Assembly: GCA_030710605.1 (NCBI GenBank)
Contig: CP092886.1
Coordinates: forward strand, 52,354,394-52,418,393
From: Cordylochernes scorpioides
Lineage: Eukaryota > Arthropoda > Arachnida > Pseudoscorpiones > Chernetidae
Direction of reading: 5' to 3'
DNA length: 64,000 bases
The notes under the pieces are model-generated. The model was not told the DNA's origin. It saw nothing but the letters and a program-made list of their open reading frames with translations, and made no database searches. This document shows, piece after piece, positions 8,644 through 58,556 of this stretch. The first letter of the stretch is position 1, and each line of letters opens with the position of its first letter. The position numbers and the translations under genes are program-made.

Positions 8644-11600
8644 TTAACGTCCAAATCGTTTAGGGTTGCGGGCCTTTTGGGCTCGCTCCTCCTCCTGCTG
8701 ACGGGCTCTAAGGTCCTCCAGGATTTGTTCTTGGCGCGGGGACGGCTCACCTGGCTGTCTGGCGGGGGCAAGGAGCGGATCTCTCTGGGCGCTCCTGGCT
8801 TGTCTTCCGGCACCACTGGCTTGTCTTCCGGCACCCCTAGCTTGTTCTCCAGCGCCCCTGGCAAGTCTTCCGGCATTAATGGCTAGTCGACCGGCATCTT
8901 TGACTACTCTTCCGGCACCACTAGCTAGTCTTCCGGCAGGAGCGTGGAAAATTGGAGCTTTTCTTTCCCAATGAGCGACGTATTGAGAATCCTGTGAATC
9001 AGCGCCATTGCCTTGCATAAAGCCTGGGACTTGCTGTCTTTCGTGGGCAGGTCCAAGTCTTTTCATCGGAAGGGACTTCTTCGTTCGAATTGGATAATAT
9101 ATTCGAAACATGTCCATGATTGTCTGTTTCCTTCATATTTCCTTGATCTGGCATTGGACTTTCAGCTTCACTAGAGATTAGAACGTTATTTTCGCAACTC
9201 TCTTTATATTTATGAGATTGGTTATCTGTAACTATGGCATCTTGATTATTTTCATCGTCAATAGATGCAGCAATATCTTTATTTTTTCCTTCACGGTGAC
9301 ACATTTCAGATTCATCCAGCATTTCCTTTGTTTCTTCTTCTTCCTTCTCAACCTCTACCAAACGCTTTTGCAGGGCTGGAACTGGAGGGCTGGATGATAG
9401 AGGAGCTTGAAGCATGGGTTTGCCATTTTCAACTCTCGTTTGATCTGAACTTGGTTCTCTATAGTCAAGATTGGTAGAATTATTTGTTAATTCCGTCTTT
9501 TCTTCTGATGATTGATGAGTGTTATCATCATCGCATTTGGAAATCTCCTTTTCTGTATCCATTTTAATAAAGGCGTTTGCATTAATATCAATTATAGTTT
9601 GTTGAGTCCGTTGAGGAGAATTAATATTTCGGCTTTCAACTTCTTCAGCGAATGATGAATTTTGCTTCATACCTTGAGTTTGCAATCGTCCAAGTTGTTC
9701 AATATCATTTTGTTCTTGTCCTTTTGATACGTTTGTTAGGTACTCAAATGTATCTATCTTTTCATTAGCTGACACTTGAGCGGTAGACATATGGCTTCTA
9801 GCAAGTCTTCCAGCACTCCTTTCTAATCTTCCGTCACTCCTGGATAGCCTTCCGTCATTACTGGCTAGACTTCCGGTGCCCCTGGCTAGTCTGGCATTAC
9901 AGGCTAGTCTTCCGGCACCTTTGACTAGTCTCACATGATTTCTAGCTTGTCTTCCGGCGCCCCTGGGCAGTCTTCCGGCATTACTGTCTAGTTTTCCAGC
10001 ACCGCTGGACGGTCTTTCGGCATCACCGGCTAGTTTTCCGGCAGTCCTTGGAATATCTTCGGCATTACTGGCTAGTCTTCCGGTACCGCTGGGCATTCTT
10101 TCAGCATCGCTGGCTAGTCTTCCGGCAGTATCATTGAGAATAGGAGTTTTTATTTCCCAATGGGCGACATAATTAGAACTCTGTGATTCTATTTGTGAAT
10201 CGCCGGCATCACCTTGCATCATTTCCATCTTCTTCTGAAGAGCTGGGACTGGAGGACTTGTGGTTTGCCGAGGGAAGGTCGAAGTTCTTTCTTCGGAGGG
10301 GACGTCTTTATTCAAATTGGATATTTTTCGGCCTTGATTTATTTGACAACTTTCAGCTGGCGATTGATTTCGCTTCATGCTTTGAGTTGTCAATAGTCTA
10401 CGCTGTTCAAAATCCTTTTGTTCTTGACTTTCAGCTACGTTTGATTTAAAAGTAGAGCTATTAAAATTGTCTACTTTTTCGTTTGATGACACTTGAGCGG
10501 TAAACGTATGGTCTTTATCATTTCTTCGGGTATTCTCATTTGAATTTGAAATCCTTGAAGTACTTGCAGACCTTTGATCGTGGCTTCCAAAGCAAGATCT
10601 TCTCTCTAAATTATTCATATTTGAATTCTCACGGGTATGACAATGTCGACACTGAGTTGGAATATTTACTTCCTGATTTACATTTCGAAAAATAATTTCT
10701 TCTCCGCGTGGCAAAGGTCCCATTTGCGATCTGTGAGGACTGCAGTAATTCGTTAAATTTATTCCATGACCTTCCATTGTATTTCTACTGAATTCTCTTT
10801 TCGACAAACATCTAGATTCTGAATTCATTTGTCGTTGTCTTTCGAGTTCCAATTCTTTTATTCGCAATTTATAGTTTTCCAATTCAATCTCCAAGCGAAC
10901 TCTCTCAAGCTTAATATTTTCTATATACGCTTCACGATCTTTAAGCGCTTGTTGCTTCATTTCCAACTTATCAAAGGCCCCGATTCTCACGGATGATTCC
11001 GATCTTTCTTCTACTTCTATTTCCTCTTCTTCAGTCCTAGATGCTTCACTTTTTGTTTCAAAATCCATTCGAATATTTTTGCGTCCGGTTTCTGACGTTT
11101 TCTTTACATTGCAATATCGGTTTTGCTGATGCTCATATCTATTCTTTTGAACAACGTTTTTTGGACGTATTACTTGTTTTGGCTTAGTCGATAACTTGAC
11201 TTCTGAAGTTTTAGCGAATTTCTCCTTTTCAGCACAAGTATTTCTTTTCTTTTTATCGGCTTCTGCCTCAGCCTCGGCTTCTTTAATTGCATTGATGACT
11301 AAAAGTCTATTTTTCTCTTTTTCATCTTCTTTCTCTTTTTGGCGGCGCAGATCCATTTCAAATTCCATTCGCATCTGTTCTCTCTCAAGTTCGAGTTTTC
11401 TGTCACGTTCTGCTTCTTCTCTTGCCAGTCTTTCTTTTTCTTCTCGTTGTTTCTGCCGTTTTTCTTCCAATATTCTGGCATTTTCTCTCTGAATTTGAAG
11501 AGCTTTCATCTTTTTTGCTTCTTCTTCTTGATAGCTTCGAGGATCAATAGCTCCAAAGCCCTGAGCAATGCTATCTGAATTGAATCGAATTTTAGGAAAA

Positions 11601-11890
11601 GTTTTCCTTTGAGGAGGCGCGTCTTGAAAATAACTAGGCCCAGGTTGGTTAGATGCACCGGCTCCAGGTCTTCCCCATGGGTTCCATTCTTCATTTATCT
11701 CCGATCTCTCTTGTTGCCATTGCAGTCGCTTTTGTTCCACGCGGCTGAGACTTTGGTACCTGCGGCCCGAGTCTGATGTCCGTCCTTCTACCTTAACTTC
11801 CGGGCTTGAATATTCATGTGAAGATGCAGATCTTCTAGCGCTTTTTTGTCTCCTTGCCTTTTCAGGCTTCTTGGTATGTCGTCGATCCAT
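8644..11890 (-). CDS. CCDC66: CCDC66-like coiled-coil centrosomal/ciliary protein, frame broken near C-terminus
   Basis: One uninterrupted frame (11890 to 8999, 963 residues) has the layout of CCDC66, a microtubule-binding protein of centriolar satellites and cilia. It shows a basic Ser-rich N-terminus, a Trp-rich block (QWQQERSEINEEWNPWGRPG, about 58-76), an 'AIDPRSYQEEEAKKMK' entry into a long E/K/R coiled coil (about 114-215), a second coil (about 305-355), and SPPVPALQK motifs. A GRLAS-type heptad-like repeat block follows a YVAHWE motif. The frame then stops at 8999, but a second frame (9117-8644) continues with another YVAHWE, more GRLA repeats and RDPLL ... RQEQILEDLRARQQ, which matches the conserved C-terminal end of CCDC66. 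Compared with the upstream copy of the same module, the junction near 9020-9035 lacks a net 26 bases, which shifts the frame. The gene has no introns here, unlike vertebrate CCDC66, so a retrocopy is possible; no poly-A tract was seen. A sequencing indel or a true truncation cannot be told apart. Confidence 0.8.
8660..8965 (-). repeat. Distal GRLA-type repeat block of the CCDC66-like gene
   Basis: Tandem 21-bp-like units encode variants of AGRLASG. Together with the preceding YVAHWE module this is a second copy of the block at 9780-10135. The two blocks show an internal duplication of about 1 kb spacing within the gene. Confidence 0.6.
9780..10135 (-). repeat. Proximal GRLA-type repeat block of the CCDC66-like gene
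   Basis: Roughly fifteen degenerate units encoding GRLASNA/GRLARGA-like heptads, each centred on CTAGTCTTCCGGCA in the plus strand. Units differ at many positions, so the array is not very young. Confidence 0.6.
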
Positions 11891-12370
11891 ATATCGAAGA
11901 TAACTTCAGGTAAATTTCCAAAATGTTATTCGATCACAGAAGAAATATATAACAAAGTTAGTTTCAGCTCTTAAATAAGAAACGCTGTTGCTATTAACAA
12001 AGCAAATCAATTAATGCTACTACGCGAGCTTTATAAAATAAACGCGTGATCTCAGATTTTAAAATCTCTCCTTTTTGTTTTCTTTCGTTTAAAAAAAATA
12101 ATTTTAACTTATTATAAAGTTTCTCTATAAAATATTTAACTAGACATTAGGCAGCTTCCATTCCTCTTTAACGACCGTGCCCGAATAACGACCACTTTTC
12201 CAAATGCCCTTTCAAGTCTTGGCTTTTAAAATGATCTTTAAAAGGCGGCTCCACCTCTACTACTGATCACTGTGATTTTGTGTGGGGTTCACAAATTTAC
12301 AATTTCATTTATAAGTGTTACTAAATTCTTACCAATCTTTTTACTACTAGTTTATTGTCACAAGTCACAT
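11891..12370. promoter_or_regulatory. Upstream region of the CCDC66-like gene
   Basis: This is the 5' flank of the minus-strand gene. It is AT-rich with no clear TATA or initiator arrangement that I can defend. No upstream exon was recognised. Confidence 0.25.
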
Positions 12371-26329: not shown

Positions 26330-26648
26330 CTAGCCTGATAACGATGATAATGGCTAAGCTCAAAGGAAAGCACATGGTAAGAATGGCTAAGGTAAAAGGA
26401 AATCACAAGATAAGAATTGCTAAGTTCAAAGGAAAGCACACGATAAGAATGGCTAAGGTTAAAGGAAAGCACACGATAAGAATGGCTAAGGCCAAAGGAA
26501 AGCACACGATAAGAATGGCTAAGGTAAAAGGAAAGCACACGATAAGAATGGATAAGGTCAAAGGAAAGCACATGATAAAAATGGCTAAGATCCAAGAAAA
26601 GCACACGAACGGAGTGGCTAAGGTCAAAGGAAATGAAAATGATTATTA
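26330..26648. repeat. 33-bp minisatellite, about 9 units
   Basis: The unit reads ATGGCTAAGGTCAAAGGAAA plus GCACACGATAAGA (33 bp, 11 codons). The plus strand is open (MAKVKGKHTIR repeats) and so are minus-strand frames, because the unit has no stop. Units vary at all codon positions (GTC, GTA, GCC, TTC, CTC), which argues against protein selection. The homologous array in copy 2 has about 28-29 units. Confidence 0.9.
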
Positions 26649-29161: not shown

Positions 29162-29284
29162 ATTAGATAATAAAAAGGCATATATTGGATTTAATAAAAT
29201 ATTGGCAAAATAAATCTTTTATTAAATCCAATATATGCCTTTTTATTATCTAATGAATTAAATATGGATTGCTCTATTTTCAAA
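29162..29284 (-). mobile_element. Short palindromic Penelope-derived repeat, copy-1-specific insertion
   Basis: Arms ATTAGATAATAAAAAGGCAT...TTTAATAAAAT and their complement form an almost perfect hairpin. One side continues to TGGATTGCTCTATTTTCAAA, the asymmetric end of the family. Copy 2 has an uninterrupted TA tract at the matching site (60821-60846), so this is an insertion into (TA)n. Confidence 0.75.
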
Positions 29285-29467: not shown

Positions 29468-29692
29468 TTTTGAAAATAGAGCATACCATTAATAAATCTT
29501 TATTTAAAAAGGTATATATTGGATCAAAATATCATATATTTTACCAATATATAAGTTGGCTGAACGCCAACCTTTATCAAGGTATCATATAATTAATATT
29601 TTATAACACCTTGATAAAGGTTGGCGTTCAGCCAACTGAAATATTGATAAAATAAATGATATTTTGATCCAATATATACCTTTTTAATTGAA
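29468..29692 (+). mobile_element. Palindromic Penelope-derived repeat with two hammerhead-like cores
   Basis: Starts TTTTGAAAATAGAGCATACC, ends at a TA tract. The arms carry AAAAAGGTATATATTGGATC and its complement. Each arm has a core, one per strand: plus-strand TTGATAA (29611-29617) ... GAAA (29638-29641); minus-strand TTGATAA (29574-29580). Duplicate at 61055-61280. Confidence 0.7.
29609..29647 (+). ncRNA. Hammerhead-like core with covarying C3U/G8A
   Basis: TTGATAA, one extra A, a 7-bp stem II (GGTTGGC/GCCAACT, loop GTTCA), then GAAA and TATT. Relative to CUGANGA the third and eighth positions read U and A instead of C and G. In active hammerheads C3 and G8 pair, so the change keeps a pair. 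Probably inactive or weak; may be a fossil. Confidence 0.4.
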
Positions 29693-29717
29693 TATATATA
29701 ATTATGTATATAGAGTA

Positions 29718-30750: not shown

Positions 30751-31390
30751 CACTTTATTATTCCGTTTATCATTACTCTTTACAATTCATCCTATCATGC
30801 TTCATCGCCTATGTTAGAAATAATCGTTATATTTCTCCTTATAATAAATTTTCGATTTTTCGTTCAAAAGAAATATTTGCGGTGTAACTTTCAAACTTCG
30901 TTCTACAATTATTCTTTATGTAAATATTTTTATATGTACTAATATCAAACAACGAAAAAATAATATTTATAAACAAAACACAAAAAGAAGTAAAACTAAA
31001 GATGGATCAATATTTGCAGGATGGAGTAGTTTGAAAAAAATAAATTTAAAACACATCTTGCATAATTTCGCCGTCACTTTGTCAGCAAAAACAATATCAA
31101 AATTGCATGGTATTTTGAAGAGATAAATAAAACTATTTAAGATCTTTCATATTCATGCGGTTTGATAATCCTATACATTATCATTTCCTTTTGCTTTCTT
31201 TTAACTATAGCAGTTTAGAAAATGAATAAATTAGAGTTTTTTAAGGTAAAAGAGAAAAAAGGTGCGTGTGTGTAAGATTAAGTAGATAAGATATTAGTAA
31301 AAAAATAAAACAAAAAGTCTTACCTTCTCATTGTAAAAAGATTGAACTTCTGATAAAAAATAGAAGAATAAATAAAAGAGAGAGAACTGA
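30751..31390. other. Right arm of tRNA-like element, then intergenic DNA of copy 1
   Basis: 30751-30915 matches the right arm of the element at 13596-14005. The rest is AT-rich and matches 62506-62985. Confidence 0.5.
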
Positions 31391-31422
31391 CATTTATGTA
31401 TATATATATATATATATATAGT

Positions 31423-31544
31423 GTAGAAACTATATAACAAAATTATAACAGTGATTCTAATTTTAAAAAATTTAAGGAGCAAACTGATAATAATGATAAC
31501 TTATATCAGTTAGATTTGATTAGATTAGCAAGCTAAATCTAAAT
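31423..31544. other. Left flank inside the insertion
   Basis: Absent from copy 2. It has a weak resemblance, inverted, to 39741-39870 on the other side (shared TTTAGCTTGCT core), so the palindrome may continue outwards at low identity. Confidence 0.35.
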
Positions 31545-34500
31545 TAATTATAATAATAAATAGTTATTTAATTTTATAGTCCAGTTTTGTATTAAAATTA
31601 TCTTCACTATTATGATCATTTAAATACAAATTATAAAATTTGTAAAATGTTATTAATTTGTAGATAGAGAGAGAAAAAAAAAAAAATCCATTACTTCTTT
31701 TACATCCTCAAGTTAATTATATATTTATAATTAATAACAATAAAAAAAATTAACAAAGTAACGTCTATTACATCGGCTTTTACACGTCATTCAGACATAC
31801 TCTAATCCTATATATAGAATAATCGAAGAGATAATATATATAATAGTTAGAAAAAAGAGAGAAAGACAGAACCATGCACTTTTAATCAAACTAATAATAA
31901 GGGAAAAAAAAAAAGAGTTTTATAAAGAAGGTAGATAAAATTGTTAGTATATATATATATATTTTTTTATGATTTTATGTTTTATCCTTTTTTTTTTTTT
32001 TTTTTTTTAAAGATTTTTAAAGGTTTTTTTTATTTTATAATATGATTATAAATAGTTGTATTTAGTAATATATCTATAGTATGAATTAACATTTGTTATA
32101 AGTTTGGATATTATGTTTTGAAACCCTAATGGTAGACCAGACATACACAAAAAACTTTAAATTGAAATAAATTGGAAAAAGAGATCTGCTGAAACGGGGA
32201 TCATCAGATAAAATTTCAGCGACATTTCAACCCCTCCTTTATTATGTCATAGATCTCTTTTAAACCGTATTTTATGTGTTAATATTAAGTTGTTTCAGTG
32301 AAATATTTAAATGAACATATAACAGATACCAGTGTTAACAAATTCAAACTATAAACCTACCTTGACCGCTGCGTCCTCCATTGTGTATATCTATTTCTGG
32401 CTTGCACATGTCGCGGGAGGGGAATGTCCCCCCACATTTCAAATTTAGACCATTTCTTCAGAATTTTTTTGAACAACAAGAAAATTAAAGAAGATAGGAA
32501 AAATAGTTAAAGGAAGAAAGCTAAGTTTTATAATCTTTACAGATAGTTATATCAAAATAACTGATTTAACACTTAATCATCTTTTAATATTCCTTTAAAA
32601 AGGCAAATTATAAGAGTTTAATAAAGCTATTAATTGTGCAAGTTCATCTTTATTTAACTTCCATTTTCCTCCCCAGAAATTGGAGATTAAACAAAAATGA
32701 AATATATACTTTAAAACTTTAAAAATCTTGTGAAAAAATCTTTTAATCAGTTATTTAATAAAAGTTTAATTAACTGTTAAAGATTATAAATTTGTTTTAG
32801 TTAATATTAAGAGAAATTATAGAAAGTTGATTTCATAAATGGATATTTCCATTTATTTTTTTTTAAATATTTTATAATTGATATACTGTTGAAATATTTT
32901 ACTTGTTTGATACTAAATTTGTTTTTAATAAATTCCATGTTTAAATTTTTAACATCTTCTATGAAATTATCTAATATATTATTTATTCTATAAAATCTTA
33001 GAAACTGACCATAATATATACCTTTACAGCAATTTAATGATATATTAGAATTCATATTACAGTATTTTATAATATTGAAATTATAATTACTCTTTTTATT
33101 ATAAACTCTAACAGCACTATTTGTAAGGTCTATATTCAAGTCTAAAAAGTTAACTTTTTTGTTTCTATAAATTTTTTCGTTGTTCTTAAGTTTCAAGTAT
33201 TTAGGATATATTTCAGGTATTAATTTTTTAAACAGTGGATTATTAAATATTATTATGTCATCTACATATCGGAATATTTGCCAATTAATATTATTTTGTA
33301 GAAAGTATTCTCTTTCGTACCAGAACAATATTAAATTTGCTAGTAACGGACTAGAAGAAGTACCCATGGGAACGCCTTCTGATTGAATATATATTTTATT
33401 TTTAAATTCTATATAGTTAAAATTTAAAAATGTTTCCAGTAGAGTTTTTGCTGTTTTAAGATCTAATTTAAATGTTTTATATTTGTTATGAATAATTTTA
33501 ATGTAGAAAGTTTTGTCATTAATTAATTCATTAAATAAATTGGTTATTTTATTATTTAGATCTCTTAAATTTATTTTAGAATATAGGTCCTCAAAGTCAA
33601 ATGTGTGTACTGTTTCAATATTTGTCCAATTGTTCATTAAATAATTAATGATTTTTTTATTTGAGTCGATAAATTTATAATTATATTTATTAGTTAATTT
33701 ATTTATAATAAATTGTAGTGTTGAGGCTAATTGTATATCAATATTTTTTATGACTGAATTTATACCAGATGTGATTGTTCTGAAAGAAATAGGTTTTTTG
33801 TGTAGTTTAGGAATTATATAGAACTTTGGTATGTTTGGATTTTTGTGGTTATTATAAATTTTTAGTGAATTTTCAACATTTTTGATGTCTTTTTTGATTT
33901 TTGTGCCTGTAGTTCTAGCAAAAGTGTATTTATGATTATTATCAATTTCTTTTTTTAGTATATCGTGGTATAGATTTTTACAAATTAAAGATAAATTATT
34001 GGGACATTTATCTATAGGAGTGATAATATAGTCCTTCTGTAAATTAATTATATTTTCTTTGAAAGAAGGAATGTCTGAATTGGGTTTTGTGTATTTAAGT
34101 GTATTATTATAATAATTTAAAATTTCCTTTTTAATATTATGTTTCCATTCCAGAAAAGTAAATTCTGGAATACTGTATTTTATACTAGTTTTATTTATGA
34201 AAATATCTATATCTTTTAATATAGATTTAATTGTATTATTATAATTGTGTTTAATTTGAGGTATATATTTATACCCTTTATTTAAAATTTCTTGATATTC
34301 TGGATTTAAAAAAGAAAAGTTGCTAGTTAATATATGACCTGAGTACTTATATTTATCAATATAGTTGTTGCAATTACATTTAATTTTTTTAAAATTTGCC
34401 AAATTATTAATAAATTGGTTATAATTGCAAACTAAATTACCTATATTTTTATTGTATCTCCAGATTGTTTTAAAATTTAAATTTTTTATAGGGAAAAGAT

Positions 34501-35582
34501 TATTGATGATTTGGTTATTAAAAATATCATTAAATTTAATATGATTAAATAAATTGTTATTAAATTTAATGATAATATTAATGTTATTAGTATTTTGTTT
34601 AATTTTTCTGTATTTAAAGATGTCGTGTGTGATATCTATTAATCTGTTAGTCAGATTATGAATTTTAATATATTCTATGAGTTTGATAAATTTATTATTA
34701 TTTAGTTTAAATAATGTTTTAATAAATTTATCGACGAAGTTGTTAGTGTACATTTGTTTTGGGTCCAGTAATTCTTCAAATTCAATGTAACCTAATTTAT
34801 TTGTAGTTTTACCTCTAGTTTTATTAGGTTTAGTTTTAAATTCATTTTTATATTTGCAACTGATTTCATAAGTTGAAATTTCTTCTGTTTGTGGTTTGTA
34901 TGTGTAGTTTAATTCGTCGTTAAGTCCATAAGGGAATAATGTGTTGTGTTTATAAATGTAGTTGTTTTCTAATAATAGTCGTTGTTTTTTGTTTTGACAT
35001 ATGTCTAGTATTTCTATCTTAAAGTTGTTAAAAGTATGTAATTGATTGTGTTCTTTCATATATATATTACCAATTGATTTTTTAGCGTGGTTTCTATGTA
35101 GGTTTATTCGTATATTTAATGGGTTACAAGTTTGTCCTATATATGATAGTTGACAAATTTGGCATGTTAATTTATAAATAGTATTCACTAATTTACAACT
35201 AGTTGTTTGAAAAGTGTCATGGTTCTTAAGAGAGGGACAAGTTTGACAATTTTTTCTTAGGCAATTCTTAGCGAGTTTAAATTAACATAAAAGAGGTGCT
35301 AACACTAATATGTTTGTAGTTTTTTTAGTTTTTTTAGTTTGTTATTCTTATGAATTTTTTAAATATATTTTACTTAATTGTTTTTGTGGTGATAAAATTT
35401 GTAATAAATTGAATAATTAATCTATAAATATATAGATATTACTGTTTGTTATCTGTTATATTTTTAAGAATAACTAATAAAAAAAACATCTTTAAACTAA
35501 CAAAAACACTGAAAAAAAACAAAAGTTCTGAAATTATTTTTTTTTTCTAGAATTACTTTTATAATTTAATTTTAAATAATCA
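31545..35582 (-). mobile_element. Naiad-type Penelope-like element, left palindrome arm
   Basis: Left arm of the giant inverted repeat. Positions pair with the right arm so that coordinates sum to 71270 (71269 on the inner side of one indel). It contains a full ORF (32807-35188) and a long 3' region of about 1.26 kb. The element reads outwards, from the centre to the left. Confidence 0.85.
32807..35188 (-). CDS. Permuted Penelope-like polyprotein: N-terminal GIY-YIG endonuclease plus reverse transcriptase
   Basis: A 793-residue frame. Residues 3-80 form a GIY-YIG nuclease: TIY (3-5), CQIC (9-12, CXXC), YIG (16-18), Arg27, and Glu74 in LLLENNYIYK. The RT follows: IDKC block (about 392), DFEDLYSKI (motif A, about 530), SEGVPMGTSSSPLLANLIL (motif B, about 604), RYVDDIII (motif C, about 640), then the KKVNFLDLNIDL block. 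Endonuclease before RT is the Naiad/Chlamys order; ordinary Penelope elements have it at the C-terminus. The codon at 35188 is GTG, not ATG. The frame stays open 31 codons further (to 35281) with an extra Cys motif (KNCLRKNCQTC) and no ATG before a TAA, so the true start is unclear. Codon use is extremely A/T-rich. The ORF is otherwise intact and would allow target cleavage and reverse transcription. Confidence 0.88.
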   Translation of the reverse strand: MNTIYKLTCQICQLSYIGQTCNPLNIRINLHRNHAKKSIGNIYMKEHNQLHTFNNFKIEILDICQNKKQRLLLENNYIYKHNTLFPYGLNDELNYTYKPQTEEISTYEISCKYKNEFKTKPNKTRGKTTNKLGYIEFEELLDPKQMYTNNFVDKFIKTLFKLNNNKFIKLIEYIKIHNLTNRLIDITHDIFKYRKIKQNTNNINIIIKFNNNLFNHIKFNDIFNNQIINNLFPIKNLNFKTIWRYNKNIGNLVCNYNQFINNLANFKKIKCNCNNYIDKYKYSGHILTSNFSFLNPEYQEILNKGYKYIPQIKHNYNNTIKSILKDIDIFINKTSIKYSIPEFTFLEWKHNIKKEILNYYNNTLKYTKPNSDIPSFKENIINLQKDYIITPIDKCPNNLSLICKNLYHDILKKEIDNNHKYTFARTTGTKIKKDIKNVENSLKIYNNHKNPNIPKFYIIPKLHKKPISFRTITSGINSVIKNIDIQLASTLQFIINKLTNKYNYKFIDSNKKIINYLMNNWTNIETVHTFDFEDLYSKINLRDLNNKITNLFNELINDKTFYIKIIHNKYKTFKLDLKTAKTLLETFLNFNYIEFKNKIYIQSEGVPMGTSSSPLLANLILFWYEREYFLQNNINWQIFRYVDDIIIFNNPLFKKLIPEIYPKYLKLKNNEKIYRNKKVNFLDLNIDLTNSAVRVYNKKSNYNFNIIKYCNMNSNISLNCCKGIYYGQFLRFYRINNILDNFIEDVKNLNMEFIKNKFSIKQVKYFNSISIIKYLKKNKWKYPFMKSTFYNFS

Positions 35583-35686
35583 AACAATGAAAGATAATTA
35601 AAATTTGTATGAAGATTTATTTATATTAGAATATCTAATATAATTTAATTTGTATATTATGTTATATATAAAAAAAAATATATCAT
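35583..35686. other. Spacer at the centre of the palindrome (104 bp)
   Basis: Non-palindromic AT-rich DNA between the arms. A unique asymmetric spacer is what a genuine inverted pair would have; a simple fold-back read would tend to have a shorter turn. Confidence 0.8.
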
Positions 35687-36080
35687 TGATTATTTAAAAT
35701 TAAATTATAAAAGTAATTCTAGAAAAAAAAATAATTTCAGAACTTTTGTTTTTTTTCAGTGTTTTTGTTAGTTTAAAGATGTTTTTTTTATTAGTTATTC
35801 TTAAAAATATAACAGATAACAAACAGTAATATCTATATATTTATAGATTAATTATTCAATTTATTACAAATTTTATCACCACAAAAACAATTAAGTAAAA
35901 TATATTTAAAAAATTCATAAGAATAACAAACTAAAAAAACTAAAAAAAACTACAAACATATTAGTGTTAGCACCTCTTTTATGTTAATTTAAACTCGCTA
36001 AGAATTGCCTAAGAAAAAATTGTCAAACTTGTCCCTCTCTTAAGAACCATGACACTTTTCAAACAACTAGTTGTAAATTA

Positions 36081-38463
36081 GTGAATACTATTTATAAATT
36101 AACATGCCAAATTTGTCAACTATCATATATAGGACAAACTTGTAACCCATTAAATATACGAATAAACCTACATAGAAACCACGCTAAAAAATCAATTGGT
36201 AATATATATATGAAAGAACACAATCAATTACATACTTTTAACAAACTTTAAGATAGAAATACTAGACATATGTCAAAACAAAAAACAACGACTATTATTA
36301 GAAAACAACTACATTTATAAACACAACACATTATTCCCTTATGGACTTAACGACGAATTAAACTACACATACAAACCACAAACAGAAGAAATTTCAACTT
36401 ATGAAATCAGTTGCAAATATAAAAATGAATTTAAAACTAAACCTAATAAAACTAGAGGTAAAACTACAAATAAATTAGGTTACATTGAATTTGAAGAATT
36501 ACTGGACCCAAAACAAATGTACACTAACAACTTCGTCGATAAATTTATTAAAACATTATTTAAACTAAATAATAATAAATTTATCAAACTCATAGAATAT
36601 ATTAAAATTCATAATCTGACTAACAGATTAATAGATATCACACACGACATCTTTAAATACAGAAAAATTAAACAAAATACTAATAACATTAATATTATCA
36701 TTAAATTTAATAACAATTTATTTAATCATATTAAATTTAATGATATTTTTAATAACCAAATCATCAATAATCTTTTCCCTATAAAAAATTTAAATTTTAA
36801 AACAATCTGGAGATACAATAAAAATATAGGTAATTTAGTTTGCAATTATAACCAATTTATTAATAATTTGGCAAATTTTAAAAAAATTAAATGTAATTGC
36901 AACAACTATATTGATAAATATAAGTACTCAGGTCATATATTAACTAGCAACTTTTCTTTTTTAAATCCAGAATATCAAGAAATTTTAAATAAAGGGTATA
37001 AATATATACCTCAAATTAAACACAATTATAATAATACAATTAAATCTATATTAAAAGATATAGATATTTTCATAAATAAAACTAGTATAAAATACAGTAT
37101 TCCAGAATTTACTTTTCTGGAATGGAAACATAATATTAAAAAGGAAATTTTAAATTATTATAATAATACACTTAAATACACAAAACCCAATTCAGACATT
37201 CCTTCTTTCAAAGAAAATATAATTAATTTACAGAAGGACTATATTATCACTCCTATAGATAAATGTCCCAATAATTTATCTTTAATTTGTAAAAATCTAT
37301 ACCACGATATACTAAAAAAAGAAATTGATAATAATCATAAATACACTTTTGCTAGAACTACAGGCACAAAAATCAAAAAAGACATCAAAAATGTTGAAAA
37401 TTCACTAAAAATTTATAATAACCACAAAAATCCAAACATACCAAAGTTCTATATAATTCCTAAACTACACAAAAAACCTATTTCTTTCAGAACAATCACA
37501 TCTGGTATAAATTCAGTCATAAAAAATATTGATATACAATTAGCCTCAACACTACAATTTATTATAAATAAATTAACTAATAAATATAATTATAAATTTA
37601 TCGACTCAAATAAAAAAATCATTAATTATTTAATGAACAATTGGACAAATATTGAAACAGTACACACATTTGACTTTGAGGACCTATATTCTAAAATAAA
37701 TTTAAGAGATCTAAATAATAAAATAACCAATTTATTTAATGAATTAATTAATGACAAAACTTTCTACATTAAAATTATTCATAACAAATATAAAACATTT
37801 AAATTAGATCTTAAAACAGCAAAAACTCTACTGGAAACATTTTTAAATTTTAACTATATAGAATTTAAAAATAAAATATATATTCAATCAGAAGGCGTTC
37901 CCATGGGTACTTCTTCTAGTCCGTTACTAGCAAATTTAATATTGTTCTGGTACGAAAGAGAATACTTTCTACAAAATAATATTAATTGGCAAATATTCCG
38001 ATATGTAGATGACATAATAATATTTAATAATCCACTGTTTAAAAAATTAATACCTGAAATATATCCTAAATACTTGAAACTTAAGAACAACGAAAAAATT
38101 TATAGAAACAAAAAAGTTAACTTTTTAGACTTGAATATAGACCTTACAAATAGTGCTGTTAGAGTTTATAATAAAAAGAGTAATTATAATTTCAATATTA
38201 TAAAATACTGTAATATGAATTCTAATATATCATTAAATTGCTGTAAAGGTATATATTATGGTCAGTTTCTAAGATTTTATAGAATAAATAATATATTAGA
38301 TAATTTCATAGAAGATGTTAAAAATTTAAACATGGAATTTATTAAAAACAAATTTAGTATCAAACAAGTAAAATATTTCAACAGTATATCAATTATAAAA
38401 TATTTAAAAAAAAATAAATGGAAATATCCATTTATGAAATCAACTTTCTATAATTTCTCTTAA
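36081..38463 (+). pseudogene. Permuted Penelope-like polyprotein, frameshifted copy
   Basis: Same protein as the left arm but with an extra A in the CTTTTAACAAACTTTAAG stretch (about 36238-36255). This separates the GIY-YIG part (36081-36243) from the RT. The RT part is open as a 648-residue frame (36517-38463) with motif A at 37672, motif B at about 37890 and YVDD at about 38002. If the indel is real the endonuclease and RT are uncoupled; it could equally be a base-calling error. Confidence 0.85.
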
Positions 38464-39008
38464 TATTAACTAAAACAAATTTATAATCTTTAACAGTTAA
38501 TTAAACTTTTATTAAATAACTGATTAAAAGATTTTTTCACAAGATTTTTAAAGTTTTAAAGTATATATTTCATTTTTGTTTAATCTCCAATTTCTGGGGA
38601 GGAAAATGGAAGTTAAATAAAGATGAACTTGCACAATTAATAGCTTTATTAAACTCTTATAATTTGCCTTTTTAAAGGAATATTAAAAGATGATTAAGTG
38701 TTAAATCAGTTATTTTGATATAACTATCTGTAAAGATTATAAAACTTAGCTTTCTTCCTTTAACTATTTTTCCTATCTTCTTTAATTTTCTTGTTGTTCA
38801 AAAAAATTCTGAAGAAATGGTCTAAATTTGAAATGTGGGGGGACATTCCCCTCCCGCGACATGTGCAAGCCAGAAATAGATATACACAATGGAGGACGCA
38901 GCGGTCAAGGTAGGTTTACAGTTTGAATTTGTTAACACTGGTATCTGTTATATGTTCATTTAAATATTTCACTGAAACAACTTAATATTAACACATAAAA
39001 TACGGTTT

Positions 39009-39093
39009 AAAAGAGATCTATGACATAATAAAGGAGGGGTTGAAATGTCGCTGAAATTTTATCTGATGATCCCCGTTTCAGCAGATCTCTTTT
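39009..39093 (+). ncRNA. 3' region hairpin with hammerhead-like boxes in Naiad arm
   Basis: An exact 11-bp stem (39009-39019 with 39083-39093, AAAAGAGATCT) encloses 63 nt. Inside, GGGG TT GAAA (39042-39045), T, GTC (39047-39049), then CTGATGA (39063-39069) and CCCC follow in the cyclic order of a hammerhead opened at stem II. But there is no room for a stem III loop and stem I is weak. The mirror copy is at 32177-32261. I treat it as a structured element of unknown function. Confidence 0.3.
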
Positions 39094-39724
39094 TCCAATT
39101 TATTTCAATTTAAAGTTTTTTGTGTATGTCTGGTCTACCATTAGGGTTTCAAAACATAATATCCAAACTTATAACAAATGTTAATTCATACTATAGATAT
39201 ATTACTAAATACAACTATTTATAATCATATTATAAAATAAAAAAAACCTTTAAAAATCTTTAAAAAAAAAAAAAAAAAAAGGATAAAACATAAAATCATA
39301 AAAAAATATATATATATATACTAACAATTTTATCTACCTTCTTTATAAAACTCTTTTTTTTTTCCCTTATTATTAGTTTGATTAAAAGTGCATGGTTCTG
39401 TCTTTCTCTCTTTTTTCTAACTATTATATATATTATCTCTTCGATTATTCTATATATAGGATTAGAGTATGTCTGAATGACGTGTAAAAGCCGATGTAAT
39501 AGACGTTACTTTGTTAATTTTTTTTATTGTTATTAATTATAAATATATAATTAACTTGAGGATGTAAAAGAAGTAATGGATTTTTTTTTTTTTTTTCTCT
39601 CTCTATCTACAAATTAATAACATTTTACAAATTTTATAATTTGTATTTAAATGATCATAATAGTGAAGATAATTTTAATACAAAACTGGACTATAAAATT
39701 AAATAACTATTTATTATTTATATA

Positions 39725-39870
39725 TATATATATATATAGTATAGTTATGATATTTGATACAGAATTAGCTTGCTGTTCAGACTCAAAGTTAATTCAAAAA
39801 ATCTGTTTTTCTTAATAGTTTAATTTTCCTCTATTTTCCTAATATAAAAAATTACTATTAATATATTTAT
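39725..39870. repeat. Right flank inside the insertion, dispersed repeat
   Basis: About 40 bp (ACAGAATTAGCTTGCTGTTC then AGACTCAAAG) match 53715-53755 in inverted orientation with few differences. Absent from copy 2 of the duplication. Confidence 0.5.
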
Positions 39871-39947
39871 ATATATGTCGTAATTTGTATAATATCCAAG
39901 AGGTATAATCTCTTTTCGCCAAAATAAGTATGTTAAACTGTAAATAT
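39871..39947. repeat. Segmental duplication, copy 1 tail
   Basis: TGTCGTAATTTGTATAATAT and the following 50 bp match 63008-63078 nearly exactly. This places the whole 31423-39870 block as an insertion within copy 1. Confidence 0.85.
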
Positions 39948-40690
39948 GTTAAGCTTGTGTTAAAGAATATTATACCCTTTGAAAATAATTATTGAAATAG
40001 AGTATTTGAATATTTTATTTTATTGATATTTTTTACTTGTAGCGCTGCGCGCATATTATAATAGAATATATTTACAATTCTCCAATAATATATTATCATT
40101 CTCAAGGGTGTCCATTGTTGAAAAATTCTTTAGAAAGGGTTGAAATATATATTTTTTAAAAAGTGTGTGTGTGTAAGTCGTTATTTATTCTGTAAATTCT
40201 TGTGACTTGTCCCGAGTAGATACCTCTCGAAAATCCATTGAGATGTTAGAATAGAAATTACACACCGAAAGAGTTATTATTTACTTAAAATTTATTTTTT
40301 TTTTCGGAAAGATATTCAAATTAGTTTCAAATCTATAAATGAGCTATTTTATCGTTTTGAATTTTCTGGTTTTTGGTAAAATTGAGGTAGTTTGAATATA
40401 TTCTGTAGGTTAATTTCTTGTAATCTTCTGTTTGGCTTTAAATTTAAATGTCTTACACATAACTGGCGAACTGGCCACAGAAAATTGTATCATGTGGAAA
40501 TATTCATGTAAATATTATGAAATTTGGTGAGCTATATAATGATAACGTGAAAAATATTTTTTAAGGGATGTAAATTTATTTAGATACACAGCTTTATCAA
40601 TATTTGATGTTTTCCTCATTTGGCACGTATACAAACAGCTACATTGTGAGGCATACTGTTATTCGTTTTTATGGCTTCGTGTGGTATGCT
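39948..40690. other. Intergenic, nothing recognised
   Basis: AT-rich with no open frame of note. Confidence 0.4.
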
Positions 40691-45801: not shown

Positions 45802-47220
45802 CCCTGCGTGACATTGAAAATGGAACACCAAGAAATAGTGGCCAGAAAGTGATGAAACTCGGCAGACAGAGAGAGACAGGGACGAACAATAAGTGATCTT
45901 TATTTCAAAATGATAGTCATAATACAGAGCGAGAACGGCGTCGGCTTAGTAGCAAGTAGGACCACCGCGGACGGCGATGCACGCAGCAACACGTCTAGGT
46001 AGAGAGTCAATCAGAGTACGGATGGCGTCCTGAGGGATGGCTCTTCATTCCCTCTCAACCACTTGCCACAGTTCGTCTTCTGAACGCGGCTGTGGCAAGG
46101 CATGCAAACGGCGTCCAATGATGTCCCAGACGTGCTCGATTGGTGAGAGATCAGGAGAGTACGGTGGCCAGGGAAGCATCTGTACATCTTGCAGAGCTTG
46201 TTGGCTAATGCGAGCAGTGTGCGGTCGGGCGTTATCCTGCTGATAAAGGGCATTGGGTACCCCCTGAAGGTAGTGGAGTGTCACCGGTCGCAGCACATCA
46301 TCAACGTATCGTTGGGCCGTCAAATTGCCCTGAATACGAAGTAAAGGTGACCTGGAATCATACGCGATTGCGCCCCAAACCATGATTCCACGTTGTCGCA
46401 CGGTGGGGCGTTCCACAATTGCTGCCGGATTGGACCTTTCTCCACGTCGACGCCACACGCGTACACGGCGACTATCACTGGACAAGCAGAAACGCGACTC
46501 ATCTGAGAACACGACCCTGTACCATTCCGTCATCCACGTCGATCTAGCCCGGCACCATTCCAAACGTTGGCGCCTATTCGGTGGGGTCAATGGCAGTCTT
46601 CTTAGCGGACGGCATGAGTGCAAGCCATTAGCAACCAATCGACGGGAAATGGTTCTGGTCGAGATGGAATGATCTAGGGTGTCTTGCACATGTTGCAGGA
46701 TGGCGGTACAAGTGGCTTGTGGGGCCGCCACTGCTTGTCGAAGGATACGCCGATCCACACGTGCTGACGTCACTCTGGTTGCACCGACATTCCTATAAAT
46801 TGCCACATTTCCTTGTTCCAACCATCTTCTCCATAGTCGGTGCACCGTGGACGCACCAAGGTGTGTATCAGCTGCGATTTGACGTATGGACCAACCTGCC
46901 CTTTTCAGTCCGATCACCATGCCCCTCGTAAAAGCGTCTGTCTGCTTGAACTGCCTCCGTTTACGATGACCTGGCATTCTCTGTTATTACACGTGTCTTT
47001 TGACACAAGAACAAAATTTCTACGATGATTTTCCTTGAAGAAATAACGACACGAACACTCTCCATTCTGCAAGTTCTTTCCCTTATATCTTACTCCATGT
47101 GCGCACGAGAGCTGCGCATTTTACATCATTTGCATAACTCGGTTAGGCGCGTCTACCCTGAAATCTGCATAATTTTCTGGCCACTATTTCTTGGTGTTCC
47201 ATTTTCAATGTCACGCAGTG
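45802..47220 (-). mobile_element. Nearly intact Tc1-like transposon
   Basis: 1419 bp, flanked by TA on both sides (45800-45801 and 47221-47222). The TIRs are about 47 bp (start CMCTGCGTGACATTGAAAAT, then GGAACACCAAGAAATAGTGG). The transposase gene fills the interior on the minus strand. Intact ends mean it could still be moved by a related transposase. Confidence 0.92.
45958..46977 (-). CDS. Tc1-like transposase, one nonsense codon
   Basis: The frame runs from MPGHRKRRQFKQTDAFTRGM (46977). It has a paired helix-turn-helix DNA-binding region (WSIRQIAADTHLGASTVHRL and RRLVANGLHSCRPLRR) and the catalytic residues in VVFSDESRFCL, YQQDNARPHT and SPIEHVWD. A TGA at 46045-46047 interrupts it after residue 310 (context VERE-stop-RAIPQDAIRTL). 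The same frame then continues cleanly to TAA at 45958-45960 (about 339 codons in all). The stop replaces the Trp usual at this place. By my count 32 residues separate the second Asp and the Glu, two fewer than classical DD34E Tc1. The truncated product keeps all catalytic residues. The transposase cuts and pastes the element at TA sites. Confidence 0.88.
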
Positions 47221-47881: not shown

Positions 47882-49172
47882 TTGGGTTGTAAAGAAGGTT
47901 CGTTTGGGTTTCTATCCCTTTGTTTCATAACGGTTATTGTTGTTATACGGTAAAGTGTTTATATTCTTTAAATAGTACTCGCTCTGCTCTACAAACCAGT
48001 ATTTTTTTTTGAAAAAAAAAACGTAATATTTTGTTATTTCTAAAGGCTTGAAAATTGAATATCCAGGAGGAAAATATAAACATTTTCGAAATCTGCTTTT
48101 TTTCGCTTTTCATCGAGGTCAAAAAGCAGCCGAAGCAGCTCGGGACATATGCAACGTGTATGGAAAAGGTGTCATAGGGGAGCGAGAAGCAAATGGTTTG
48201 CAAAGTTCAAAAACGGCGACTTGGACCTTGAAGTCACGCCTCGAAACGGAAAACCATCAAAATTCGATTAGGAACATCTAAAGACCCTGTTGAAGGAAGA
48301 TGGTCGCCAAACAACCCGTGAATTGGCCGAAAAAATTAAATGTAGTGCTGTGACCACCTACAACCATCTTCAATCAATAGGGTTTTCTCAAAAACTCGAA
48401 GCTTGGGTGCTTCACGAGCTTAATGAAACCAATAAAGAAAATCGCCTTCAAATCGCTGCTTAACATCTCGCAAGCCATCAATCAACACAGGGCCATAAAC
48501 AATGATTTTTATACTGATTCGTTACGGGAGATGAAATATGGTGCCTAAACCTGAATAGGAAGCAAAGAAAAGAGTGGATGGCTCCAGGAGATACGCCGAA
48601 GCCAAGAATAAAGCAAGATCTTCACCCACAAAAGGCTATGATCTGCGTTTTTTTTGGACTGGGAAGGTGTGATTTACTGGAAAATGCTCGAAAGGAATGC
48701 CAAGGTCAACAAGGACCTCTACATTGCTCAATTTCATCACTTGAATGAGGCTATTCAACAGAAATGACCCGATCGACAAGGTCAAATCATTCTCCTTCAC
48801 GACAACGCTAGGCCGCATGTTGAACAAGTCGTCAAAGCCGCCTTTCAAGAGCTCGAATGGGATATTATACAGCACCCGCCGTACTCTCCGGACCTTGCAC
48901 CAACCGATTACCACCTTTTCCGCTCCATGTCAAACCATATGAGAGGCACTACCTTCGATGATGAAGAGGACCTCAAAACCTGGCTCAACAACTTCTTCGA
49001 CACCAGACCGGGCAATTTTTGGCAGAACGGCATCAACAAACTAGTCGAATGTTGGAAGGAGGTCGTAAATAATAACGGAAAATACATAATTGAATACCTA
49101 ATTGTTATAATTAATGTTTTTGTCTTTAAAAAATTGTCGAATAAAACCGAACGAGCCTTCTTTACAACCCGA
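47882..49172 (+). mobile_element. mariner transposon with intact ends, broken transposase
   Basis: 1291 bp between TA dinucleotides. TIRs TYGGGTTGTAAAGAAGGYTC with about 30 bp similarity. Plus-strand transposase remnants in order: an N-terminal block (EAARDICNVYGKGVIGER near 48140), TTRELAEKIKCSAVT near 48320, VTGDEIW near 48525, then HPPYSPDLAPTDYHLFRSMS near 48870 and a normal C-terminus ending NGKYIIE near 49090. Several frameshifts and stops. DD34D type by motif. Confidence 0.85.
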
Positions 49173-49689
49173 TACATAAAAATCATTTGTTAAAACACTA
49201 AAGAATTAAAAAATAATTAAAAACAATTTTATTTGAACGCTTCTGGACAAATTTGACGTTAGAATCTTAGATTCTGATCTAATTAACTCGGTAACGTAAC
49301 AATGAGCTTAATTTTTAATGCGTTTCACAATAAAAGGATTTGAAAAGTTATTTGTAATATTTGGTTAATGCATTCACAATTGGCCTCCATAAAACTTTGT
49401 TCGTCGAAAAAATAATGAATAAAAGAGCACCATTCGCATATTAAAATATAAATATGTTTTTATTATTTTCTTATTTAGTATGAATAATATACAGTTTAAG
49501 AGACTCATTTTGGTTTAGAGAATTTCACTTGAAGGCTTCAATATGTTTACCGATGTATCAATGATTTCGACTTTGTAAATTTGAACCACAACAACTCCGT
49601 TTGAATACTTGTACCCGATGTTAGACCTGTTAAGGAATCTTAAGAAAGATAGTAATTTATTTTGTAAAATTGTTTTAGCCAGATTGAAT
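49173..49689. other. Intergenic, nothing recognised
   Basis: AT-rich, no motif. Confidence 0.4.
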
Positions 49690-50550: not shown

Positions 50551-51889
50551 CTTTAGTTTTCTCCATGAGGATACATCTCATTGTGAATTCTCTTAGTGGT
50601 ATAGCCAGTCTTATTTATCAGACCGCTCTAATATTACATTGGACTTAATTGCTTCGATGACAATGAAGAAAAAATCTTGGTTGAAGTATTTAAGCCAACT
50701 ATGGACATAGGCATTAATTTTTAAAAAATCGTTTCTATGCATCGAGCAATTCTCTTCCGCAAATATTATAATCGATTTAAAGAAAAGCTTTAACCTCTTC
50801 GTTGTGTACTAAATAGTAGGAGAATGATTACTAAAATTAACAAAGGAATGGGGCGATTACAACAAACATTTTGTGACAGATTAGAGAGAATATTTTACTA
50901 ATCGAACTCAAACAGGAAGTTTAAGAGTTGAAAATAATTCCTAATTTAAACAGATTCCATTCCCTCTATATGAATAAAGAATGTATATTATGTGGATTGC
51001 CTGTTCCCTTGAGGCATGTCTTCTCCTGTCGAGAGAGCCAGAAATTTCTCTCAATTTCCCAAATGGGAAGATTGGAACATTGTTTAATTAATTGTTTCTT
51101 TTGTGATTTTTGTCGCAAATAAAAAGTATATATATTACCTTTAATTAAAAAGGCATATATTGGATCATATATTACCCGTGTTCATATATTAGCTATAAAA
51201 TTTTCGCGGAAGACAACATGTTATTTGCATTAATGAAAAATTTGTATGTATTAAAGATATTTGAGAAGATTTTCTTCTCTTATCTAAGTTCCTGCTGATC
51301 TGTCATAGGTATGATTAAGGCCATTCATCTACCTCACATTTTCTATAAAGATTTGTAGTTAGTTGGGAAAAAAGTAGAGTTGATTGCGCTTATCTTTGGC
51401 CAATTGATACATCTTGCTATCTTAATTCTTCTAAGCCGTCTCGTGTCTGAATCGGTATCGCCTAGTACTTCGTTTGGGTCAAGTTTTCTATTTTCCTAAA
51501 AGAGCATACTGTTCTCTGATTCTAGACTCATTCATTAATTTATAATAGTATTTCATACTAAATATTGGTTTAGAGAAGTCTGTGGGGCTATCGTCAACTA
51601 CTACCAGATGAGTGACCCGTTTAGCCGATGTGGGTGTTCATATTTTACGATTCGCAGCGTGGCTATCAAAATCATATATTTAGCGTTTATCGTTAATTGA
51701 AAAATTCTTATTGTTAACTTAAAATAGTTTCGCTTCACACACATACCAACGTGACGATTAATATATGAGGATTCTATTCACATTGCTTCAACAGTCGGCT
51801 TTTGAATTTTATAAAGCTGGAGATATGTAAACTTTTATTCAAAGTTTTTTTTTTCTATTATTTTTCATATATATATATATATATATATG
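50551..51889. other. Intergenic with one repeat fragment
   Basis: 51141-51168 (TTAATTAAAAAGGCATATAT then TGGATC) is a lone piece of the Penelope-derived repeat family. Otherwise nothing is recognised. A TA tract lies at 51867-51888. Confidence 0.4.
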
Positions 51890-51962
51890 TTTGAAAATAG
51901 AGCAATCCATTTATTATATTATTTAAAAATGCCTATTTTGGATCAAAAAGTTTTATTTCCGA

Positions 51963-52000
51963 TATTTCGTGTGGCAACTCGCCAAACTTCTTCGGGGAAC
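51963..52000 (-). ncRNA. Hammerhead-like core in Penelope 3' region
   Basis: Minus strand: TTCC, CCGAAGA (51989-51995), extra A, stem II GTTTGGC/GCCACAC with one mismatch and loop GAGTT, GAAA (51965-51968), then the self-complementary ATAT, C, and GGAA, which pairs with the TTCC before the core as stem I. Only the fourth core position (U to C) departs from CUGANGA, apart from the extra A. Confidence 0.45.
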
Positions 52001-52226
52001 AAGATTGTTTTGATAAGCTCGCGTATCAATTCACGAGTATGTACAACTGCTATAAATTTTTAAAAATATCTAAAATCTACAATATGCATGTTTATAAATA
52101 TAATTATTAATAATAAAATGATATATAAAATATTAATATATAGAGAATAAATAAATATATACATTTAAAATAAAAGAATTGAAAATCAGTAATTTGTTAT
52201 ATATATATATATTGTATAGTAGTGGG

Positions 52227-52553
52227 CTACATGGTTTTAAATTGTAAGTATAATTGAGGAATGTCTATTTTTCGATTGATACTGTTTTTATCTTCTATTG
52301 AGGTCCAGCTTTCTAGAAAAAGTCTTGAATGTTTGTCCTTGATATTTTGATATACTAATTCAGTTGAGTCAAAATTTGGTATGTGATCCTGTTTTAGTGC
52401 GTGGTCTACTAAAAGGGAAAGAGGGCTATATATATTTATAATTGCAGATATGATGAATCGCCTCAGCATTGATAACTTCCAAAAGACAAATGTAGATAGA
52501 CATGGATCAGCCGTTTTTTTCTCATTTTGAAAAGAGCGACCTAACAAGCCCAC
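52227..52553 (-). pseudogene. Penelope-like element C-terminal endonuclease fragment
   Basis: A 108-residue frame whose second half carries the conserved tail of conventional Penelope proteins: LVDHALKQDHIPNF, then RLFLESW, and NSINRKIDIPQLYL. This is the region after the YIG-type nuclease core. The RT and the nuclease core upstream are missing or scrambled. Truncated, not functional alone. Confidence 0.7.
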
Positions 52554-53463: not shown

Positions 53464-53586
53464 ATTAGATAATAAAAAGGCATATATAATGGATTCAATA
53501 ATTGGATTGAAAAATCTTTTATTCAATCCAATATATGCATTTTTATAATTTAATGATTTAAATATGGATTGCTCTATTTTCAAAAC
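53464..53586 (-). mobile_element. Short palindromic Penelope-derived repeat
   Basis: Arms ATTAGATAATAAAAAGGCAT and its complement, right side extended to TGGATTGCTCTATTTTCAAA; same build as 29162-29284. It sits against a TA tract. Confidence 0.65.
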
Positions 53587-54049
53587 AAATTTATATAGAG
53601 AGAGTAATTTTGGAAGAAGGTATGTAGAATATAAAATAAATTGTAATTCACTAATTTTGAAAAAAAAATGCTATTTTTATTCGAAGAGTTTAATTTAGCC
53701 AAAGTATAGTTTAATCTTTGAGTCCGAACAGCAAGCTAATTCTGTATTAAATAATAACATTAGGAAATTTTGAAAAATATATATATTTGTTAGTTGATTT
53801 AAGCATAAACGGTTTGTTTTTATATATGTAAAACTGACCAATACTTCCTTGTTTAGCGGATATAATGGTTATCGGTCTATTTGTCTGCTATTTAGATTTA
53901 TATTTGAACAATTTTTATATTTCCTTTTTTTTCTGTTTTGGAGTATAGCTGTATTAATGGTGGATTAAATTAAAAATAAGATAATCGAATTTTTTTTCTG
54001 ATTCAACTTCCAATCGTTCCAATTTTTTGGTGGAAGAGGTAAGAGAGGG
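53587..54049. other. Intergenic with one shared repeat
   Basis: 53715-53755 matches the right flank of the Naiad insertion (39750-39795) in inverted orientation. Confidence 0.4.
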
Positions 54050-57601: not shown

Positions 57602-58556
57602 TCATGAAAATTAGTCTGATAACAATGAGAATGGCTAAGGTCAAAGGAAAGCACACGATAAAGATGGCTAAGGTCAAAGGAAAGCACACGATAAGAATGG
57701 CTAAGGTAAAAGGAAAGCACACGATAAGAATGGCTAAGTTCAAAGGAAAGCACAAGATAAGAATGGCTAAGCTTAAAGGAAAGCACATGATAAGAATGGC
57801 TAAGGTCAAAGGAAAGCACACGATAAGAATGGTTAAGGTCAAAGGAAAGCACATGGTAAGAATGGCTAAGCTCAAAGGAAAGCACATGATAAGAATTGTT
57901 AAGTTCAAAGGAAAGCACACGATAAGAATGGCTAAGGTCAAAGGAAAGCACACGATAAGAATGGCTAAGGTAAAAGGAAAGCACACGATAAGAATGGCTA
58001 AGGCCAAAGAAAAGCACACGGTAAGAATGTCTAAGGTCAAAGAAAAGCGCACGATAAGGATGGCTAAGGTCAAAGGAGAGCACACGATAAAGATGGCTAA
58101 GGTCAAAGGAAAGCACACGATAAGAATGGCTAAGGTAAAAGGAAAGCACACGATAAGAATGGCTAAGGCCAAAGAAAAGCACACGATAAGAATGTCTAAG
58201 GTCAAAGAAAAGCACACGATAAGGATGGCTAAGGTCAAAGGAAAGTACACGATAAGAATGGATAAGGTCAAAGGAAAGCACACGATAAGAATTGCAAAAA
58301 TCAAAGGAAAGCACACGATAAAAATGGCTAAAGTCAAAGGAAAGCACACGATAAAAATGGCTAAGGTCAAAGGAAAGCACATTATAAGAATGGCTAAGAT
58401 CAAAGGAAAGCACCCGATAAGACTGGCTAAGGTCGAAGAAAAACACACGATAAGAATGGATAAAGTCAAAGGAAAGCACATGATAAAAATGGCTAAGGTC
58501 CAAGAAAAGCACACGAACGGAGTGGCTAAGGTCAAAGGAAATGAAAATGATTATTA
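57602..58556. repeat. 33-bp minisatellite, about 28-29 units
   Basis: Same unit as 26330-26648. Higher-order blocks are visible: a run with AAAGAAAAGC, AAGAATGTCT and a purine-shifted unit repeats near 58005-58075 and 58170-58225. That points to local unequal exchange or slippage of multi-unit blocks. Long frames on both strands (57604-58557 plus; 57480-58535 and 57547-58512 minus) are by-products of the stop-free unit. Confidence 0.92.

Follow-up and report, generated by a model that had tools for sequence, protein, structure and literature searches.

The window analysed here, a 64,000-nucleotide stretch of contig CP092886.1 of the pseudoscorpion Cordylochernes scorpioides, contains two Naiad-type copies arranged head to head (31416-39722), and this arrangement, together with the ends of related insertions elsewhere in the genome, is quite likely to reflect a recently active Naiad-type Penelope-like retrotransposon that would insert through a two-ended cycle. 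The placement of the nuclease before the reverse transcriptase (RT) is the Naiad order, which is already a published kind; the structure of the copies is more interesting than the domain order itself.

The head-to-head pair

The left arm of the pair is a nearly full-length copy on the reverse strand (31416..35686), the 3' end of which points outward into (TA)n and carries a 133-bp tail (31416..31548, reverse strand) that is present on this arm only. The right arm is a second copy, on the forward strand (35686..39722), and its 3' end, which has no tail, also points outward into (TA)n. The inner head-to-head junction lies at 35686, where unit position 22 of the left arm meets position 124 of the right arm. 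The arms are 99% alike and differ mainly in short length changes (1 mismatch and 10 gap positions in 4041 alignment columns). The frame of the right copy is shifted near 36240, leaving an open part of 749 aa (36214..38463, forward strand), and an uninterrupted frame is therefore found in the left copy alone.

Domain organization of the Naiad-type protein

The first-pass annotation of this DNA had described a Penelope-like element with permuted domains in a 793-aa frame at 32807-35188 on the reverse strand. This frame exists, but its true extent is wider, since it is open to 35281 and measures 824 aa from stop to stop (32807..35281, reverse strand), encoding a GIY-YIG nuclease, a linker with a CxC motif, and an RT. 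The motifs claimed for it (TIY, YIG, CQIC, Arg27, Glu74, motif A, GVPMG, and YVDD) were all found at the positions given. The nuclease occupies the N-terminal 131 aa of the frame (34889..35281, reverse strand), and when this part was submitted alone to Pfam, the check suggested in the annotation, aa 34-114 matched PF01541 (GIY-YIG) with an E value of 3.5e-7 and a score of 30.9 bits (cut-off 22.6). The CxC motif of the linker reads KCNC (aa 301-304; 34370..34381, reverse strand), and the RT region extends from aa 327 (32807..34303, reverse strand), with motif A (DFED) at aa 562, motif B (GVPMG) at aa 636, and motif C (YVDD) at aa 672.

Neither the whole 824-aa protein nor the 693 aa remaining after the N-terminal part has a Pfam family at E ≤ 1, and an NCBIfam search gave no match at the same threshold. 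Searching the PDB by sequence returned seven weak matches for the whole protein (the best to a group II-type RT, E 0.24; telomerase at E 0.58) and a single match, to a ribosomal protein (E 0.37), for the nuclease part. Single-sequence structure prediction gave a mean pLDDT of 38.5 for the nuclease and 34.2 for the RT. Viral contigs searched with six peptide patterns yielded no close relatives. Because no in-frame ATG precedes the nuclease motif in the window copy or in another unit read (L016), the GTG at 35188 is merely a mechanical start; 28 candidate joins to a spliced first exon were considered and none was convincing. Translation of the ORF would need either such an exon or a non-AUG start.

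A conventional Penelope fragment had also been noted in the window, and it is real: positions 52016-52430 are 96.4% identical to a copy elsewhere in the genome that has an intact ORF. The fragment contains the C-terminal nuclease end of that ORF, and belongs to a 5'-truncated conventional copy (51850..52430, reverse strand) made up of this nuclease end and the 3' flank with its tail. The conventional family was reached through this fragment, and the intact 786-aa ORF that was read (L043) matches RVT_1 in Pfam with an E value of 7.8e-15. Besides the Naiad-type family, this genome harbours a conventional one with long open frames, in agreement with the suggestion that both lineages have been active. 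The permuted order itself is borne out by BLASTP of the window protein against the L043 ORF, which produced two strong alignments, one pairing the RTs (window aa 327-677 with L043 aa 164-495, E 3e-13) and the other pairing the N-terminal nuclease of the window protein (aa 18-106) with the C-terminal nuclease of L043 (aa 668-760, E 2e-6).

Aligned with two conventional RTs, the window RT shares 29% and 28% of its residues with them, and its motifs A and B are 74 residues apart versus 61 in the conventional proteins (+13). The insertion-in-fingers domain of Naiad lies between these two motifs. A profile built from the three RTs matched the bacterial protein Drt3a (E 6.3e-8) far better than telomerase (E 0.97). 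Drt3a as the best match is in keeping with a 2025 preprint in which Penelope RTs, telomerase RTs, and bacterial UG RTs share one clade.

Classification

Judged by domain order, motifs, and insertion habits, the element is very probably of the Naiad type. The features by which Craig and colleagues reportedly defined Naiad in 2021 comprise a CCHH nuclease, a CxC linker, the lack of a hammerhead, and a bias towards microsatellites. The window element has a GIY-YIG nuclease ahead of the RT in one ORF, CCHH residues in that nuclease as read by eye (CQIC at aa 40, LHRNH at aa 61, and KEHN at aa 76 of the 824-aa frame), and the KCNC motif at aa 301 in the linker. Positions 31000-40500 contain no canonical hammerhead match, as no Rfam family of any kind was matched there at E ≤ 5. 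Pseudo-LTR, tandem, and inverted insertions are all present, and 39 of 41 ends found by signature lie in (TA)n. Together, the domain order, the cysteines and histidines of the nuclease, the CxC linker, the absence of an Rfam hammerhead, and insertion into TA repeats support the Naiad assignment made at first pass.

Features noted here beside those of Naiad are the 133-bp tail, the nearly exclusive TA-repeat target, and the lack of an in-frame ATG before the nuclease. Selenoprotein Naiads occur in spiders and clams; unlike these, the window ORF has no in-frame TGA. Chlamys elements share the N-terminal position of the nuclease and are not known to carry the CCHH motif seen in the window element. 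Conventional Penelope/Poseidon elements (e.g., L043 of this genome and PAc of Anolis; PMC11167929) resemble the window element in RT homology, tandem units, head-to-head pairs, and AT-rich targets, and those of this genome also carry one tail per insertion. They differ in that the nuclease is C-terminal, after the RT, an arrangement that the window element does not have. In addition, Pfam recognises RVT_1 in L043, and Anolis PAc has a hammerhead and a start site that is not homologous to the DNA it cuts (PMC11167929).

A young family with tandem units

The Naiad-type family is young, multi-copy, and recently active. A first look at the 2.62-Gb genome gave 34,338 candidates; the 57 that were scored all show 100% identity across the 793-aa query, with open frames of 824 aa in 56 of them and 803 aa in the other, and a 701-bp probe found 100% identity at 40 of the 40 scored places, out of 747 candidates; the counts of identical copies (57 and 40) are lower bounds. 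Units also occur in tandem with a period of ~4,283 bp, and one C3 array contains six of them. In the same genome, 150 of 333 candidates for a cuticle domain were scored and all 150 exceeded the cut-off, as expected of an arthropod; Hemocyanin_M and Spidroin_N gave no match, but since none of the three families produced a signal in 14 control genomes, these two negatives are not evidence of absence.

Targets and 3' ends

Naiad 3' ends fall at two alternative points, 133 bp apart. A signature scan, which would miss ends lacking the signature, found 41 ends, 22 untailed and 19 tailed. At least 10 nt of (TA)n adjoin 36 of these 41 directly and three more after one extra A (L026, L052, and L056); the last two (L059 and L060) are both ends of one insertion into an imperfect TA-rich target and share flank letters. 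The window's own two ends, seen apart from the scan, are likewise in (TA)n. Flank letters were compared in 21 pairs. In seven of these (L059/60, L035, L037, L041, L067/68, L069/70, and L071/72), 12-17 letters other than pure TA are common to both sides; they may include letters of the element's own end, so that the true duplication is possibly a few nt shorter. The letters shared by 13 of the 21 pairs, the majority, are pure TA (8-32 nt) and hence uninformative as to duplication, and the remaining pair is that of the window, whose right end has a variant signature.

Every Naiad insertion readable at both outer ends has one tailed and one untailed end (13/13). These comprise the window pair, L013, the small insertion nested in L020, L015 with L045, L017 with L046, and eight of ten further pairs that were chosen by coordinate prior to inspection of their ends; two of the ten were dropped (in L061/L062 the left read continues into another unit, and in L063/L064 the right read has no element). 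The conventional family follows the same pattern, with one tail (~30 bp by eye) in each of eight insertions readable at both ends, namely five of seven loci (in L034 and L040 the two ends could not both be read) plus all three pairs added later; L033, L039, and L042 were left out of the tail count. If ends were independent and at equal odds, 13/13 would have a probability of 0.00012 and 21/21 of ~5e-7. Of the 13 Naiad pairs, 11 carry their tail on the low-coordinate side (two-sided P 0.02), as do three of the eight conventional ones.

The one-tail pattern has been partly seen before, since the rotifer study (PMC3846280) notes that one of the two inverted pLTRs may optionally bear the tail. A one-tail rule was not found stated in the portions surveyed of five papers (PMC11167929, PMC3846280, PMC8969392, PMC10941475, and PMC12632851). 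As a separate observation, RNA of the start-site region is predicted to fold more stably than shuffled sequences do (z -2.9).

Orientation and inner junctions

Among the places listed, Naiad neighbours within 15 kb are oriented (-,+) in 30 cases, (+,-) in none, and on the same strand in 41 (150 listed places of 9,048 candidates, on contigs C1-C4 only). The corresponding numbers for the conventional family are 31, 0, and 3 among its 150 listed places of 34,326 candidates. The absence of (+,-) pairs from both listed sets means that the 3' ends of opposite-strand neighbours point outward. The 5' side can be seen in 14 insertions, and 12 of these are head-to-head; in L018 and L030, both with tailed 3' ends, the truncated 5' end joins plain flank and the inverted copy is absent from the stretch seen.

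The 12 Naiad inner junctions that were read are mostly asymmetric. Counted round the unit, the breakpoints of the two arms are 353-1483 nt apart in nine junctions and close together in three (5 nt in the small L020 insertion, 102 nt in the window, and 128 nt in L019). Six of the 12 junctions have 4-15 nt common to both arms. Homology of at least 4 nt is expected by chance with a probability of 0.045 per junction (null mean 0.99), and at least six in 12 with a probability of 6e-6. Two further junctions have a 1-nt overlap, and four contain inserts (7, 9, 18, and 51 nt), which by eye repeat adjacent letters in three cases (L013, L019, and L021).

A proposed insertion cycle and its rivals

The arrangement of the ends makes it fairly probable that insertion proceeds by two-ended priming, in which two target-primed cDNAs, one per strand, are joined in the middle. 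The letters common to the flanks suggest that the element protein would nick both strands of (TA)n in a staggered manner. The nicks would leave protruding 3' ends, each priming a cDNA on element RNA. The cDNAs would start at two fixed points 133 nt apart, both of which end in UAUA and could pair with the repeat; start points ending in TATA beside (TA)n suggest that the nicked repeat pairs with the RNA. In each of the 21 insertions, from either family, that could be read at both ends, one strand used the outer point and the other the inner point. Each cDNA would be 5'-truncated or run through tandem units, and the two would be joined head to head via microhomology or short inserts, as the junctions read here indicate. 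Protruding 3' ends acting as primers would produce head-to-head copies with outward-facing 3' ends as well as a target duplication, which matches the observations wherever these can be told.

On balance, the same scheme is favoured for both domain orders, with the strands primed separately on different RNA start points, one tail per insertion, joining by microhomology, and the start points corresponding to two seats on a protein dimer instead of being alternatives. The ends directly display one start point per strand; from this we infer a dimer with two seats. In vitro, a conventional Penelope protein from Anolis cleaves both strands and extends them, with synthesis beginning at either of two sites on the RNA, and its action on both strands fits two-ended priming (PMC11167929). 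The same work found the strands alike in start site and the start site not homologous to the target, and both results count against the two-ended model (PMC11167929). So do the almost symmetric junction among the 12, the two others that come close, and the two of 14 insertions without an inverted copy. The preference of the RT profile for Drt3a over telomerase, the pure-TA targets of most pairs, and the lack of a start codon also weigh against the overall reading. The low-coordinate lean of the Naiad tails is unexplained, as the model offers no account of it and contig direction should be irrelevant.

The strongest rival, though an unlikely one, is self-priming, proposed for rotifer Penelope elements in the portion of that study consulted (PMC3846280), whereby one cDNA (or an antisense template) folds back to serve as its own template, yielding a head-to-head palindrome. 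It predicts the observed orientation, and the near-symmetric junctions of the small L020 insertion, the window, and L019 are as it would have them. By our reasoning, however, a strand that snaps back would be copied to its own start and should have outer ends that are alike; they are unlike in 21 of 21 insertions, and the widely separated breakpoints at nine of 12 junctions are also contrary to self-priming.

It is improbable that the pairs arose when insertions made separately were later inverted or recombined. The copies are long and nearly identical, and nested insertions do occur (L020), so such events could happen, but they should also generate tail-to-tail pairs, which are found in none of the 61 opposite-strand neighbours within 15 kb among the places listed, and they do not fit the 12-17 letters common to both flanks in the seven pairs with imperfect TA targets. 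There is still less to recommend an assembly fold-back artefact: the window arms match almost perfectly and their junction is near-symmetric, as a fold-back would be, but the outer ends differ (tail versus no tail) and run into different flanks, eleven other junctions have their own breakpoints, and many more pairs exist among the places listed. Least credible of all is the idea that the RT is of a conventional or other kind and that its N-terminal part resembles a nuclease by chance or derives from fusion with host sequence, a reading in line with the lack of a Pfam family for the full-length protein and with the ribosomal protein as the only PDB match of the nuclease, but opposed by a nuclease that alone exceeds the curated Pfam cut-off and aligns with the Penelope nuclease, and by the recurrence of this frame in all 57 scored copies.

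Implications

The insertion mechanism of Penelope-like elements is unsettled. The 2013 rotifer paper, in the portion consulted, favoured self-priming and called for experiments (PMC3846280), and in vitro work published in 2024 still called for validation of the later steps (PMC11167929). When one genome harbours a conventional family next to a young Naiad one, and both leave readable ends, the question of insertion becomes a counting problem. That elements of both domain orders show the one-tail pattern suggests that relocation of the nuclease left the reaction unchanged.

Surrounding repeats and reading frames

Besides its Penelope-like elements, the window contains two arrays of the same 33-bp tandem repeat (27.7 copies at 57628-58541 and 8.9 copies at 26341-26633), in which more than one reading frame is open. 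Tc1/mariner-type elements are represented by a 312-aa open transposase frame with HTH_Tnp_Tc3_2 and DDE_3 domains (Pfam; 46045-46983) and by a DDE_3 fragment scoring slightly under the Pfam cut-off (48768-49193). A single open frame of 968 aa (8999-11905) includes a CCDC66-like stretch (E 1.7e-7), which is overlapped by a degenerate, 21-bp-based tandem repeat (9804-10127). Judged from its cuticle domains, the genome as a whole looks arthropod-like, yet a search run without a positive control gave no match to Hemocyanin_M, which would cover hemocyanin, phenoloxidase and hexamerin.

Penelope-like elements

The 5'-truncated conventional Penelope copy at 51850-52430 ends with its own tail inside (TA)n, and head-to-head pairs with the one-tail pattern are seen among other copies of its family. 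Short pieces of 62-93 bp (29197-29284, 29529-29469, 25546-25465, 56836-56755, 61147-61056 and 53526-53587) match the 3'-end/tail region of conventional Penelope at 78-84%; some of them, close to small palindromes (29162-29254 and 29492-29699), may represent old solo ends. Among head-to-head pairs with both outer 3' ends readable, 11 of the 13 Naiad pairs bear their tail at the end with the lower coordinate (two-sided P 0.02), as against 3 of the 8 conventional pairs; this lean of the Naiad tails may be due to chance or to some effect of direction. Within the Naiad frame, no in-frame ATG occurs 5' of the GIY-YIG motif in either the window copy (stretch 35188-35281) or the unit at L016, a locus elsewhere in the genome. 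At a further locus, L018, the young insertion is adjoined by an older Naiad piece (L018:2298-2538; 88%), a hint of earlier subfamilies.
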